From assembly GCF_000695095.2 (NCBI RefSeq), contig NZ_CP011454.1, forward strand, positions 3,844,001 to 3,908,000: a stretch of DNA of 64,000 nucleotides. The letters are read 5' to 3'. The position numbers were made by a program, and so were the translations under genes. Origin of the DNA: Gemmatimonas phototrophica (GTDB taxonomy: Bacteria; Gemmatimonadota; Gemmatimonadetes; Gemmatimonadales; Gemmatimonadaceae). Of the stretch, positions 40,446 through 46,780 are shown piece by piece (the stretch's first letter is position 1; every line of letters begins with the position of its first letter). The notes beneath the pieces are model-generated. The model made no database searches. It had not been told where the DNA came from and saw only the letters and a program-made list of their open reading frames with translations.

Positions 40446-41762
40446 TCAGGGAAGCACGGTGTCAGCCGCGAGTACGGCGTTGAGCAGCACGTTCGCCCCG
40501 TTGGTGATATCCGCCGCGCGCGAGAACTCCTTGGGCGAGTGACTGATACCGCCCACACTCGGCACGAAGATCATGCCCATCGGGGCAATGTGCGCAACTT
40601 CCTGCGCATCGTGTCCGGCGCCACTTGGCATGCGCTGGTGCGATAGCCCCAGTGCTGTGGCACTCGCCTCAACGGCCTGCATGATGCGGTTGTCGCTCAG
40701 CGCCGGCGTGCTGTTCACCAACTGGGTGAAGGCAAAGCTGGTACTGGTGGCGGCACCAATGTCACGCCCGAGCTGTTCAAAGCGGGCGGTGAAACGATCA
40801 ATCTTGCTCTGGTCCAAGTCACGCAAATCCACCGTGAGCACCACCTGCCCGGGGATGACGTTGGTGGTGTTGGGGAGCACGTTCAGGCGCCCCACCGTGG
40901 CCACCTGACGACCGGCTTCACTGCGCACGGCATCATTCACCGCTACAGTAAAGCGGGCCGCCGCCAGCATGGCATCCTGTCGCTGATCCATGGGCGTCGC
41001 CCCCGCATGATTGGCGAAGCCGGTAATGGTGACTTCAAACCAGCGCAGCCCCACGATGCCTTCCACCACGCCAATCTGCCGGTTGGTTTTCTCCAGCTGA
41101 CCGCCCTGCTCGATGTGCAGCTCCAGGTAGCCCGCAAGGTCGCCTTTCTTGCGCACACTCTCGGCAATGCGTGACACATCTCCGCCAATGAGGCCGATGC
41201 CTTCACGGACCGTCTTGCCGCTGCGGGCCACCTTGTCGAGATCGGCCGGCGTGAGCAAGCCCACGGCAATCTTGCTGCCAATGGTGCCGCCCTCTTCATT
41301 TTGCCACACCACTACTTCGAGCGGGTGGCGCAAGCGGACCTTCTGTTCGGCGAGCGAGCGTGCCACCTCAATGGCGCCGAACGAGCCCACGGGGCCGTCG
41401 TAGTTGCCACCGTCGGTGACGGAGTCGATGTGCGACCCGATCAGGATGGGCTTGAGCGCCGGGTTGGTGCCCGGTACGCGCGCCAGAATGTTGCCGGCGG
41501 TATCGAGGCGCCACGTGAGCCCGCTTTGCGTAAAGAGCTCCTTGGTGAAGGCGCGACCGGCCAGATCGGCCTCGCTGTACGCCACGCGATTGATACCGGA
41601 GCCGGTACGCCCAATGCGATCGAACTGCGCCAGCCACCCATTCAGCCGGTCCCCATTGACCTCGCGTGCCTTGGCCTGATGGCCCGGCACCCAATCGAAA
41701 CGGCCAAGTGCCGGGAGGGCGGCCAGTGCGGCAGCCTGCTGCACGAAATGACGACGACGCAT
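40446..41762 (-). CDS. M20-family Zn hydrolase, carbamoyl-amino-acid / allantoate amidohydrolase-like, Tat-exported
   Basis: 438 residues. The N-terminus MRRRHFVQQAAALAALPALG is a twin-arginine signal, so the enzyme is probably exported folded. The catalytic domain has IGSHIDSVTDGGNYDGPVG and VVWQNEEGG with the metal-binding His, Asp and Glu residues. GYLELHIEQGG and a lid with GFANHAGATPMDQRQD follow. This matches N-carbamoyl-L-amino-acid hydrolases and allantoate amidohydrolases. The substrate is a carbamoyl amide; nothing nearby decides which. It is divergent from the PQQ dehydrogenase. Confidence 0.88.
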   Translation of the reverse strand: MRRRHFVQQAAALAALPALGRFDWVPGHQAKAREVNGDRLNGWLAQFDRIGRTGSGINRVAYSEADLAGRAFTKELFTQSGLTWRLDTAGNILARVPGTNPALKPILIGSHIDSVTDGGNYDGPVGSFGAIEVARSLAEQKVRLRHPLEVVVWQNEEGGTIGSKIAVGLLTPADLDKVARSGKTVREGIGLIGGDVSRIAESVRKKGDLAGYLELHIEQGGQLEKTNRQIGVVEGIVGLRWFEVTITGFANHAGATPMDQRQDAMLAAARFTVAVNDAVRSEAGRQVATVGRLNVLPNTTNVIPGQVVLTVDLRDLDQSKIDRFTARFEQLGRDIGAATSTSFAFTQLVNSTPALSDNRIMQAVEASATALGLSHQRMPSGAGHDAQEVAHIAPMGMIFVPSVGGISHSPKEFSRAADITNGANVLLNAVLAADTVLP

Positions 41763-41922
41763 GAGCGAGAAGGGACAGGAGGGACAGCGTACCGCATTCG
41801 CGGCGTGCACGGTGGGCGCCCGTGCGCTTCAGGCGGAACAGCAGACCAACAAAGATGCAGTCAGCGAGGTACCTTCCGCTATGTCCTTGCGCGTGCATCA
41901 CCCCATTGCCGGGCGGTCCCCC

Positions 41923-43977
41923 ATGCTTCGTCGTCTGCTCCTCGCGTCACTGGTTGCCACCCCTGCGGCAGCGCAAACGGTCAACTGGCCGGTGTATCAC
42001 GGCAACGATGACCACACGCATTACACCACGCTGTCCCAGATCTCACCGGCCAATGTGAAGCAGCTCAAGGTGGCGTGGACGTTCGATACCAAGGACGCCT
42101 TTGCGGGGTCAGAGATGCAGGCTAACCCGATCGTGATTGACGGGGTGCTGTACGCCACGACGCCCAAGATGCAGGTGATTGCGCTGAACGCCGCCACGGG
42201 GCAGCAGATCTGGCGCTTCGATCCCCTCAACGGCGCGCCGCCGGTGTCGCGCATCCGCCACCGGGGGGTAGTGGTGACGGGTGATCGGGTGCTCTTCAAC
42301 TACCGCAATCGTCTGTACGCGCTCGACCGGTCCACGGGGCGTCCCATCCGGACGTTTGGCGACAGCGGCTGGGTGGATTTGCGCGAGGGGCTGGGGCGTC
42401 CAGTCGAGGGACTCTCCGTGAGTGCGTCGTCTCCGGGCGTGGTGTTTGGCGATCTGCTCATCATGGGCAGCACGGTGCCGGAGCAGCTGCCCAGTGCTCC
42501 CGGTGATATTCGGGCCTTTGATATCAACACCGGCAAGCTGCGCTGGAGCTTTCACACCATTCCGCACCCGGGGGAGTTGGGCTATGAGACGTGGCCGGCC
42601 GAAGCGTGGAAGGTGGCCGGTGGGGCCAACGCGTGGAGTGGGGTGACGCTGGATGCTGCCCGCGGCATGGTGTTCGCCGCCACCGGATCGGCCAGCTACG
42701 ATTTTTATGGTGCCAATCGACTGGGCGATAATCTCTACGCCAACAGTGTGCTGGCACTCGATGCGCGCACCGGCCAGCGCCTCTGGCACTATCAGGTGCT
42801 GAAGCACGATTTGTGGGACCGGGATTTGCCGGCTGCGCCCATACTGGTGACCGTGCAACGTGACGGGCGCAACGTGGACGCGTTGGCGCAGATCACCAAG
42901 ACCGGCCATACGTTCCTCTTTGATCGCGTGACGGGGACCCCGCTGTTTCCCATTGAGGAGCAGCAGATGCCGCGGCAAACGCTGCCCGGTGATCAGACGG
43001 CGGCCACGCAGAGCTTTCCGGTGAGCCCGCCACCGTTTGCGCGGCAGCGCCTTACGCGGGCGGATCTCACGCGCCGTACGCCGGCGGCGTATCGCGCGGC
43101 GCTCAAGACCTTCAACGAATTCAACACGCCACATCCGTTCACGGCACCCACGGGCAAAGGGATCATCATTTACCCTGGCGTGGATGGCGGCGGCGAGTGG
43201 GGCGGCCCCGCTTTTGATCCGCAGACCGGACTGATGTACGTCAACTCGAACGAAATGGCGTGGCTGCTCAAGCTGGTGCCGCGCAGCGATGCCTCGCTCT
43301 ACAGCGCAAACTGTGCCGGCTGTCACGGGGATGCCCGGAAAGGCACGGCCATTGGTCCGTCGTTGCTGGACATCGCGTCACGCCGGTCCCGCGAACAGAT
43401 CGCGCAAATGGTGCGCGAGGGCACGGGTCGAATGCCGGGCTTTGGCGCCGCCATGGATGGCGGGGCAATCAACGATATCGTGAACTACCTCGTGACCGGG
43501 AAGGATGAGACCAAGGCCAAGGCCGCCGCTGCTCCCAACCCGTACGCCCTGCCCTATCGCACCGCCTACTTTGACATCTTCCTCGATCACGAGGGATACC
43601 CCGGGGTGAAAACCCCGTGGGGGACCCTCAACGCCATCGACCTCAACAAGGGGACGATTGCCTGGTCTATTCCGTTCGGGGAATACCCAAAACTGGCCGC
43701 CAAGGGCATCAAGAACACCGGAACCGACAGTTACGGCGGCGCGGTGGTGACGGAGAACGGGCTGCTTTTCATTGCCGCCACCACGTACGACAACAAGATC
43801 CGGGCCTACGACAAGAGCAATGGGCGCCAGCTGTGGGAGGCCACCTTGCCCTTTGCCGGCAATGCCACTCCCAGCACCTACATGGTGAACGGCAAGCAGT
43901 ATCTCGTCATTGCCTGTGGCGGCGGCAAGAACGGCACGCCCAGCGGCGGGGTGTATGTGGCGTTTGCGCTGCCCTGA
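41923..43977 (+). CDS. PQQ-dependent dehydrogenase with C-terminal haem c domain
   Basis: 684 residues from the ATG at 41923, which starts a signal peptide (MLRRLLLASLVATPAAAQ); an ATG 42 bases earlier is also in frame. An eight-bladed propeller begins VNWPVYHGNDDHTHYTTLSQISPANVKQL. An inserted class I haem c site CAGCH, followed by MPGF, lies near residues 460-500. The propeller then closes. The enzyme oxidises an alcohol or sugar in the periplasm and passes electrons through the haem. It resembles the membrane-bound glucose/quinate and soluble quinohaemoprotein group. Confidence 0.92.
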   Translation: MLRRLLLASLVATPAAAQTVNWPVYHGNDDHTHYTTLSQISPANVKQLKVAWTFDTKDAFAGSEMQANPIVIDGVLYATTPKMQVIALNAATGQQIWRFDPLNGAPPVSRIRHRGVVVTGDRVLFNYRNRLYALDRSTGRPIRTFGDSGWVDLREGLGRPVEGLSVSASSPGVVFGDLLIMGSTVPEQLPSAPGDIRAFDINTGKLRWSFHTIPHPGELGYETWPAEAWKVAGGANAWSGVTLDAARGMVFAATGSASYDFYGANRLGDNLYANSVLALDARTGQRLWHYQVLKHDLWDRDLPAAPILVTVQRDGRNVDALAQITKTGHTFLFDRVTGTPLFPIEEQQMPRQTLPGDQTAATQSFPVSPPPFARQRLTRADLTRRTPAAYRAALKTFNEFNTPHPFTAPTGKGIIIYPGVDGGGEWGGPAFDPQTGLMYVNSNEMAWLLKLVPRSDASLYSANCAGCHGDARKGTAIGPSLLDIASRRSREQIAQMVREGTGRMPGFGAAMDGGAINDIVNYLVTGKDETKAKAAAAPNPYALPYRTAYFDIFLDHEGYPGVKTPWGTLNAIDLNKGTIAWSIPFGEYPKLAAKGIKNTGTDSYGGAVVTENGLLFIAATTYDNKIRAYDKSNGRQLWEATLPFAGNATPSTYMVNGKQYLVIACGGGKNGTPSGGVYVAFALP

Positions 43978-44050: not shown

Positions 44051-45079
44051 GTGACACCAGCTCAAAACTCTGCAGCCCGTGTGGCTGCTCAATCCTTTGC
44101 GACGGCATCGGCGACTGAATCCGACCTCGGGTTCGGCCGCGTGGCGGCGCAGGCCGTCCGTGGACGGTTTCTTTCCCCCGATGGCCACTCCACGGCCAGA
44201 AAACTTGGGTTGCGGGGGCAGCGCACGGAGCAGTTCTACCTGCGCGCCCTCAACATTCCCTGGCCCCGATTCCTGCTCCTGCTCGTGGGTGGCGTGTTGC
44301 TGCTGAACGGGCTCTTCGCCCTCGGCTACCGGGCGCTGGGGCCGGGGGCGCTGGCCGGCACCACGTCGCTGGGGCTCGACGACCCGTTCATGCGCGCCTT
44401 TGTGTATAGCGTGGGCATGTTCACCACCTCCGGCATTGACGGCATGCACGCCGTGGGTCCCACGGCCCATGGCCTCACGGTCGCACAATCACTGCTCGGA
44501 CCGCTGGTGGGGATGATCACGCTGGGGCTCATCGTGGCGCGCCTTACCCGCCCGCGCGCCGCCATTCGCTTCAGTGAATCCGCGGTGATTGCCCCGTACG
44601 AAGGGGGGCGCGCCCTCATGTTCCGCATTGTGAACGAACTGCCCAGTGAGCTCACGGACGTCACGGCCAGCGTGAGCATGACCTGGTTTGAAAACATCGA
44701 GGGCCAACGCGAGCGCAACTTTCACCAGCTCGCCTTGGAACGGAACAACGTCACCTTCTTTCCGCTGCACTGGACCATCGTGCACCCCATTGACGAGCAC
44801 AGCCCACTGCGCGGCGTCACCCCCGAGCGCCTGCGCCGCGGGGAAGCGGAAATTCTCATTCTCATCAGCGCCCACGAAGAAACGTTCTCCACGCAGGTCT
44901 CGGTGCGTCATTCGTACGCCTGGGATGAAGTCACGTGGGATGCGAAGTTCACGAACGTCTTCATCAATTCCATCGACGACACGCTGGCCATTGATGCGGA
45001 GCGGCTGAGCCGCTTCGATCGCCTCCCGGAAAACAGTACCCGCGTGCCGGCGCCGGACGAAGGCGCCGCCATTTCCTGA
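44051..45079 (+). CDS. KirBac-like inward-rectifier channel with altered selectivity filter
   Basis: 342 residues, GTG start. One helix at about 71-94, a pore region (111-135) and a second helix (148-165) are followed by the immunoglobulin-like Kir cytoplasmic domain. That domain has RPRAAIRFSESAVIAPYEGGRALMFRIVNE, clearly that of KirBac. The pore segment FVYSVGMFTTSGIDGMHAVGP lacks the TVGYG signature: Gly-Tyr-Gly is replaced by Gly-Ile-Asp. If expressed, ion selectivity is likely not classical K+. The long N-terminus (about 60 residues) has no recognised domain. Confidence 0.85.
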   Translation: MTPAQNSAARVAAQSFATASATESDLGFGRVAAQAVRGRFLSPDGHSTARKLGLRGQRTEQFYLRALNIPWPRFLLLLVGGVLLLNGLFALGYRALGPGALAGTTSLGLDDPFMRAFVYSVGMFTTSGIDGMHAVGPTAHGLTVAQSLLGPLVGMITLGLIVARLTRPRAAIRFSESAVIAPYEGGRALMFRIVNELPSELTDVTASVSMTWFENIEGQRERNFHQLALERNNVTFFPLHWTIVHPIDEHSPLRGVTPERLRRGEAEILILISAHEETFSTQVSVRHSYAWDEVTWDAKFTNVFINSIDDTLAIDAERLSRFDRLPENSTRVPAPDEGAAIS

Positions 45080-45092
45080 CGCCAGCGTCCGC

Positions 45093-46670
45093 TCAATGCG
45101 CGTGCGCGGTGAGACTCTCGCCGCGCATGGCATCAAGATCGAGTTCCTGCTCCAGCTCCCGCAGCACTTCGTCGGAAATCGCACCTTCATTGCGCAACCG
45201 CACCAGCATGCGGCGTTCCGCCTGACGCATCCGCGCGCGCAACTCGTGACGCGTAGAGGCCCGCTGGGGATCCCGATGGCTCTCCAGACGGTCCCTGAGC
45301 TCGGCGCGCAGCCACGACACATCATCGTCGTTGGCCCACCCTTCGCGTGAGGCATCTTCGAGCTCTTCGTCGGCACGACGAAGCGCCTCAATACGGGCGA
45401 AGCGTTCTTCCTGTGCGTGGAAGGTTTCCTTGGCGAAGGCAAACCGCTTGATGATGGGCGCGAGCGTACACCCCTGCACCACCAGCGTGAAGAGAATCAC
45501 GCTCATCGTGATGTAGATCAGCTCCTGTCGGAACGGAAATGGGGAGCCATCCGTCAACGTGAGGGGCAAGGCGAAGGCGGTGGCCAACGACACAATGCCG
45601 CGCATACTCGTCCACGCGACCAGCGCCACGGCCTTGGGGCGTGGGACCGGGTCTGTCCGCGCGATTTCCTTGCTGAGCCAACGCGGTGCCCACGTGGCAA
45701 CCGGCACCCAAATCAGCCGCACCACCACACACACTACGCTGATGATGAGTCCCGGCGCCAGCAACGTGGGCAGTTCGTGCAACGACGTGGCCTTGAGCAG
45801 CGCCGTGAACTGCATGCCGAGCAGCACGAAGATCATGGCGTTGAGCACGAAGACGAGCAGCTCCCACACCGCCTTCGATTGCACGCGGGAGCGGGGCCCG
45901 ACCGCGAGCGAATAGTGCTGCCGCACATACAGCCCACCCGCTACACAGGCCAGCACCGCCGACACGTGCAGTTCTTCGGCGAGAATCCAGGCGGCGTAGG
46001 GGCCCGCGAGCGTGAGCAGTGTTTCCGCCAGCTCATCGCGGGTGCGCTTGAGCGCCCACACCAGCACCCATCCAATTGCCAAGCCAACGAGGATGCCCAC
46101 GCCGGCATCCAGGAAAAAGCGTACGATCGATTCGCCCAGACTGAACACGCCAGTCACCGCCGCCGCGACGGCCGAGCGATACAGCACCAGCGCCGAGGCA
46201 TCGTTCACGAGGCTTTCCCCCTCGAGAATCACGATCACGCGGCGCGGTACCGGCAACCGCGACACCACGGCCGCGGCGGCAACCGCATCCGGCGGCGAGA
46301 CAATGGCACCGAGCGCCACCGCTACGGCCCATGGCATGCCGGGAAACATGGCACGCGCCGCAAACGCCACCCCGGCCGTGGTGGCCACGACGAGGCCGAT
46401 GGCCAGAAGGCCTATGGGGCGACGGTTGGCGTTGAACTCGCGCAGCGACGTAAAGAACGCCGCCGCCCAAAGGATGGGCGGCAGGAAGACGAAAAACACC
46501 AGGTCCGGCTGCAGCGCCGGGAGCGCCACACCGGGAATGGCGGCGAGGACGAGGCCGGCCAGCACCTGCAGCACCGGTGCAGGGATCGGCAACCGCCGAC
46601 CGAAGGCCGTGAGGGCCACGACGATCGTGGCGAAGGCCAGACCGACCAGAATGGGCGAATGGGATTCCAT
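45093..46670 (-). CDS. Na+/H+ antiporter, CPA1 family
   Basis: 525 residues from the ATG at 46670. Twelve or so helices, with the family's FFVFLPPILWAAAFF, IVSPPDAVAAAAV (the Asp that binds the ion) and ESLVNDASALVLY, and later CVAGGLYVRQH. The cytoplasmic C-terminal tail of about 110 residues is charged and helical (FARIEALRRADEELEDASREG), probably regulatory. It exchanges Na+ or K+ for H+ at the inner membrane. It is convergent with the channel gene with 13 bases between, so the two are not co-transcribed. Confidence 0.93.
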   Translation of the reverse strand: MESHSPILVGLAFATIVVALTAFGRRLPIPAPVLQVLAGLVLAAIPGVALPALQPDLVFFVFLPPILWAAAFFTSLREFNANRRPIGLLAIGLVVATTAGVAFAARAMFPGMPWAVAVALGAIVSPPDAVAAAAVVSRLPVPRRVIVILEGESLVNDASALVLYRSAVAAAVTGVFSLGESIVRFFLDAGVGILVGLAIGWVLVWALKRTRDELAETLLTLAGPYAAWILAEELHVSAVLACVAGGLYVRQHYSLAVGPRSRVQSKAVWELLVFVLNAMIFVLLGMQFTALLKATSLHELPTLLAPGLIISVVCVVVRLIWVPVATWAPRWLSKEIARTDPVPRPKAVALVAWTSMRGIVSLATAFALPLTLTDGSPFPFRQELIYITMSVILFTLVVQGCTLAPIIKRFAFAKETFHAQEERFARIEALRRADEELEDASREGWANDDDVSWLRAELRDRLESHRDPQRASTRHELRARMRQAERRMLVRLRNEGAISDEVLRELEQELDLDAMRGESLTAHAH

Positions 46671-46780
46671 AGGGCTGTTGATCAACCTCGCACGACGTTG
46701 CCGGGTTCGCACCTGCTGCTGCCATATTTCACGCATCACACCCGCAATGGCGAGTGTGGCACCTCCAGACCACCGCCACC

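Follow-up and report, generated by a model that had tools for sequence, protein, structure and literature searches.

NirBac channels were named and defined by Zubcevic et al. (2015; PMC4607889). In that paper, NirBac1.1 and NirBac1.2 of Anaeromyxobacter form tetramers that pass monovalent cations without selectivity; POPG activates them and acid inhibits them, and NirBac1.2 does not pass Ca2+. The same source lists NirBac2.1 from Gemmatimonas aurantiaca T-27 (YP_002762692), with the filter TTGTD, whose expression and purification were problematic and which was dropped by the authors. As far as the available text goes, the paper contains one NirBac2 sequence and no functional data on NirBac2, makes no mention that we could find of a clade or of an antiporter neighbour, and calls it an open question what Kir-type channels do in living bacteria (PMC4607889). 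Here we analyse a gene from a 64,000-nucleotide stretch of Gemmatimonas phototrophica (contig NZ_CP011454.1), hereafter the window. An earlier interpretation made from the letters alone (the sequence-only reading) had described it as a KirBac channel without the GYG selectivity filter and knew of no characterised channel with such a filter. This overlooked the NirBac family, to which NirBac2.1 with its TTGTD belongs, but it was correct in so far as NirBac2.1 itself was not assayed.

Identity of the window channel

The reading frame at 44051..45079 (+ strand, GTG start) is open and intact and encodes a protein of 342 amino acids. The open reading frame, Pfam, phmmer and a structural model together identify it as a NirBac2-type channel subunit, consisting of a pore domain with two transmembrane helices and a Kir cytoplasmic domain. 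Its sole Pfam match is IRK_C (PF17655, E 8e-20; residues 172-324, 44564..45022, + strand); a TrkH match was absent in Pfam. When searched with phmmer against PDB sequences, residues 34-318 aligned to KirBac3.1 (E 7e-50) and residues 54-321 to KirBac1.1, and in the filter region the window segment AFVYSVGMFTTSGIDGMHAVG stands opposite AFFFSVQTMATIGYGKLIPIG of KirBac3.1. The filter segment reads TTSGIDG (residues 125-131; 44423..44443, + strand) where KirBac proteins have TxGYG, as the sequence-only reading stated.

An AlphaFold2 model of the monomer, built from the alignment of the clade described below (mean pLDDT 81), predicts a slide helix, M1, pore helix, M2 and a beta-rich Kir domain, that is, a single M1-P-M2 unit followed by the Kir domain. 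It matches KirBac3.1 with Z 21 over ~260 residues at 35% identity. The high rmsd of this match (~11 Å) probably arises because the angle between the domains differs, since the cytoplasmic part of the model alone fits Kir2.1 at 2.7 Å; the differing angle between transmembrane and cytoplasmic domains in the monomer model likewise explains the modest Foldseek TM-scores. Both the model and the KirBac3.1 alignment support the earlier view that the helices and the gating domain are retained.

With a Kir/KirBac architecture and a filter other than TxGYG, the window channel is a member of the known NirBac2 type. NirBac2.1 has the same architecture and also lacks TxGYG; the two differ in the filter itself, which is TTGTD in NirBac2.1 and TSGID (within TTSGIDG) in the window protein. 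Another genome of the genus (G021), probably that of G. aurantiaca T-27, has TTTGTDG at the syntenic locus (L025/L143), next to the same antiporter gene as in the window (see below). Its channel is ~70% identical to the window protein, falls in the same clade as the window gene (support 99) and shares its gene order. NirBac2.1 is almost certainly the orthologue of the window gene.

A clade of Kir-type channels without GYG

Relatives were drawn from 150 genomes around the window genome, from 395 genomes across the phylum and from a collection scan. Full-length matches were split by their score against the clade profile, with a wide gap between those of at least 465 bits and those of at most 330 bits. 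The upper group comprises 40 distinct sequences from the family of the window genome (Gemmatimonadaceae) and a sister family, and the lower group 93 more distant, canonical homologues. No clade member has an aromatic residue at the position of the filter Tyr, against 93 of the 93 canonical sequences, which have Tyr or Phe there and nearly all read TxGYG or TxGFG. A tree inferred after removal of the filter columns separates the GYG-less sequences from all others by a fully supported branch (100). The homologue alignment that the sequence-only reading had called for thus shows a filter that defines a conserved clade, with all 40 members lacking GYG. Close relatives that keep TxGYG, which would have pointed to a lone degenerate copy, did not turn up, and such a copy is ruled out. 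Nor is there more than a negligible chance of a degenerate copy or a sequencing error at 44420-44445, since independent assemblies yielded 40 distinct sequences with the same filter class, the frame is intact and dN/dS is well below 1; sequencing error, pseudogene and chance were rejected as explanations on these grounds.

Two further pore positions separate the 40 clade members from the 93 canonical sequences. In the pore helix, Gly122 (44414..44416, + strand) occupies a site that is Gly, Ser or Ala in all 40 clade members and polar or acidic (Glu, Gln, His or Asp) in all 93 canonical sequences. In the inner helix, Val162 (44534..44536, + strand) aligns with Tyr132 of KirBac3.1 at the bundle crossing, where the clade has Ile, Val or Leu (40/40) and the canonical proteins mostly Phe (90/93). 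The consensus of the clade filter is FTTTGT. T-T-T-G is present in 27 of the 40 sequences (TTTGTDG in seven, that of G021 among them), the central Gly is kept in 36 and missing in four, and the two positions after it are variable. In the aligned clade D111, F113, S120, G136 and G150 do not vary at all, and F124, T125, T126 and G128 hardly do. Pairwise dN/dS within the clade ranges from 0.04 to 0.23 for the whole protein and from 0.04 to 0.27 for the pore loop. The clade-wide loss, the matched pore changes and the low dN/dS indicate that the filter change is old, that it was accompanied by other changes in the pore and that the genes are under purifying selection. Since the NirBac2 filter is more variable than that of KirBac, the constraint on permeation may be weak, and since the aromatic residue at the bundle crossing is replaced by Ile, Val or Leu, the gating mechanism is uncertain. 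With its 40 naturally occurring sequences that lack GYG on a shared Kir scaffold and carry matched pore-helix and gate changes, the clade could be used for studying how selectivity gets lost.

Several genomes (loci L089, L090, L096, L065, L079 and L081) encode NirBac2 together with a canonical TIGYG KirBac. Mixed tetramers of the two are conceivable in such genomes but not in the window genome, where no second Kir gene was found as heteromer partner. Filter variants also occur in distant KirBac proteins (L013, L015, L016 and L142), among them TAGFG twice, once in Bdellovibrionota, and TVGYE in Pseudomonadota. The TLDYG filter of G270 belongs to a probable pseudogene, whose frame is interrupted by several stops. 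Plasmid-borne copies of the NirBac2 type were considered and rejected, as only remote relatives with 28-31% identity were seen.

A convergent antiporter as genomic partner

The sequence-only reading missed a conserved partner that lies outside its coordinates. At 45093..46739 on the - strand, convergent with the channel gene and with 13 bp between the stop codons, the window encodes a Na+/H+ antiporter (PF00999, 204 bits). Its TIGR00831 score of 358 bits lies above the equivalog cut-off of 279.6 and places it in the CPA1 family. The space between the convergent genes contains GC-rich inverted repeats, and a consensus scan found no intrinsic terminator there. Close orthologues of this antiporter had at least 57% identity and at least 589 bits; the next best match had 378 bits and 44% identity.

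Among the 150 relatives, NirBac2 was present in 36 genomes and the antiporter orthologue in the same 36, and the phylum sample of 395 genomes gave the same result, again 36 genomes with NirBac2 and the orthologue in the same 36. The union is 40 genomes that have both genes, and either gene alone was found in none. Channel and antiporter are adjacent and convergent in 38 of the 40, in differing surroundings; this number includes two genomes in which a contig break divides the channel gene (G115, G141) and one with ~0.95 kb between the two genes (G243). In G037 each of the two lies at the end of a separate contig. In G026 (L173/L174) a gap of 20.6 kb separates them while they are still convergent and the outer flanks are in the usual order, as if there had been an insertion between the two genes. 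At 57 canonical KirBac loci the antiporter was never a neighbour (usually ~3-5 kb searched on each side), and sister antiporters with 40-44% identity in other Gemmatimonadota had no NirBac2-type channel beside them.

At the 12 loci outside the main genus group, channel and antiporter are the only genes common to all within ~7 kb on each side, shadow frames aside. The pair is kept from the genus to the sister family, with channel identity down to ~48%, whereas the other window neighbours are not. On an rpoC tree the pair changes between presence and absence about nine times, a number possibly inflated by incomplete assemblies, with at least six changes on well-supported branches, and the two genes always change together. 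Over 17 genomes the distances of channel and antiporter correlate with r 0.90, compared with 0.72 for channel and rpoC, and the partial r is 0.79; genome pairs are not independent and these values are given without a p value. As to the other flank of the window channel, a PQQ-dependent dehydrogenase with a fused cytochrome c domain is encoded directly upstream (41761-43977 of the window); its gene accompanies the pair in many members of the genus and at 2 of the 12 more distant loci.

Being convergent, the genes are not co-transcribed as an operon and give no reason to assume co-regulation. Their perfect co-occurrence is in part a consequence of linked inheritance at a single locus, and because joint inheritance could produce the same pattern, the genes could co-occur without functional coupling. 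That they are always found together suggests that they work jointly, in Na+ or K+ cycling and the adjustment of cell pH. We found no description of this pairing in the literature, in a search that lay mostly outside subscription papers, and as far as that literature shows the strict channel-antiporter cassette is undescribed. A genomic partner this strict, present in all 40 genomes that have NirBac2 and at 0 of 57 canonical KirBac loci, provides a direct and testable hint of function.

A possible cation cycle and comparison with known systems

We propose, with a probability of roughly 45%, that NirBac2, as a Na+/K+ channel, and the convergent CPA1 antiporter constitute a two-gene cation-cycle cassette. 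Its starting points are observations on the genes themselves: the identity of the protein, the loss of GYG throughout the clade, the pore-helix and gate changes that go with it, purifying selection and the linkage to the antiporter. By homology, NirBac2 would be a tetrameric cation channel of Kir architecture with a single-glycine filter (T-T/S-G-x) and non-selective conduction, most likely passing Na+ and K+ with little discrimination. Weak discrimination is expected from the NirBac1 data, from the loss of the outer filter with T-T-x-G kept, and from the TrkH-like FTTTG. The non-selective NaK and CNG filters have likewise lost the outer filter residues and kept T-T-x-G. Of the functions that the sequence-only reading had considered, a non-selective cation channel is preferred, by analogy with NirBac1.1 and NirBac1.2 (PMC4607889). 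For anion permeability, which it had also suggested, no supporting feature was found in the sequence.

Linkage and analogy further suggest how such a cycle might run. Na+ or K+ would enter through the channel, driven by the membrane potential, and the antiporter would expel the cation in exchange for H+; taken together, an electrogenic leak of cations and their exchange for H+ would give a cycle with net H+ entry. Its effect would be a controlled uptake of H+ for pH control and perhaps volume control. Alkaline pH and/or lipids would open the channel by way of its Kir domain, and opening at alkaline pH would fit the acid inhibition of the NirBac1 channels. Alkaliphilic Bacillus offers an analogy, since there Nav channels activated at high pH supply Na+ to antiporters, and NsvBa is non-selective (PMC4225499). 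A weak hint from another lineage is that KirBac6.1 of Synechocystis is more abundant at pH 9.2 (PMC12382314). One may go further and picture NirBac2 and the antiporter as an obligate ion-cycling module, in which a channel that lost its K+ filter, polar pore-helix residue and aromatic gate would act as a pH-gated Na+/K+ valve with a fourfold Trk-like FTTTG filter, would feed a dedicated antiporter and would possibly control the exchanger physically. We consider this elaborate form conceivable but doubtful.

The evidence on channel identity applies in the same way to a non-selective NirBac2 channel that works on its own, for instance in osmotic or K+ balance, with the antiporter link reflecting mere inheritance of a neighbouring pair. 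Convergent genes need not share a function, and neighbours can be gained or lost in one event. Such an explanation seems unlikely, because the pair persists into the sister family while other window neighbours vary, because both genes took part together in the ~9 changes on the rpoC tree, and because no canonical KirBac gene examined has the antiporter next to it. A non-conducting sensor or scaffold, for instance a Kir-domain regulator of the adjacent antiporter, would agree with the obligate partner in the genomes searched and with a variable filter that lost its central Gly in 4 of 40 sequences. However, TM1, pore helix, filter region and TM2 are conserved and contain near-invariant or invariant residues, the pore loop is under purifying selection, and NirBac1 channels conduct with even stranger loops, so that we regard this role as improbable.

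It seems similarly improbable that the channel is K+-selective despite its altered filter, be it through a single-glycine filter like that of Trk/Ktr or in the way of TbIRK. TbIRK has no TxGYG and still a K+/Na+ selectivity above 7 (PMC5429665), so that selectivity cannot be read from the loss of GYG by itself. Additional K+ entry could also help the window genome, in which TrkH and KdpA were not found. Yet this genome encodes a Kup-type transporter and two canonical GYG channels (TIGYG/TVGYG), so that K+ supply does not obviously depend on NirBac2. Moreover, among the relatives that have been assayed the closest are non-selective, even the TrkH filter has hardly any preference for K+ (less than 2-fold over Na+; PMC6987127) and the partner belongs to a Na+/H+ antiporter family.

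NirBac2 and the proposed cycle resemble several known systems in part. Trk/Ktr (SKT) proteins share with NirBac2 a single filter glycine per P-loop, as reported for TrkH (PMC5449183), and the FTTTG motif of TrkH. In two Gemmatimonadota genomes (L101:1480-2925, L102:1468-2952) the first P-loop of TrkH reads GFTTTGA, nearly the same as the NirBac2 consensus; TrkH is rare in the order (2 of 41 genomes). SKT proteins are single chains with four M1-P-M2 repeats and without a Kir domain, unlike NirBac2 and the window protein with its one such unit, and the likeness of the FTTTG motifs is probably convergence. NaVBP/NsvBa of alkaliphilic Bacillus resemble NirBac2 in its proposed role, as a Na+ or non-selective channel that feeds antiporters for pH homeostasis, but they belong to the voltage-gated Nav family, and a genomic pairing of channel and antiporter is not described for them in the available part of the source (PMC4225499). 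TbIRK of Trypanosoma brucei is, like NirBac2, an IRK-family channel without TxGYG, but differs as a K+-selective, eukaryotic acidocalcisome protein with the filter GGYVG (PMC5429665). KirBac1.1 and KirBac3.1 are homologous to the window protein over nearly its full length, and the predicted fold matches the latter, whereas their TxGYG, polar or acidic pore-helix residue and inner-helix gate aromatic are all replaced. NirBac1.1 and NirBac1.2 share with the window protein a Kir architecture without TxGYG, but their P-loops show no relation to known filters, while NirBac2 has retained the frame of the P-loop with T-T-x-G.
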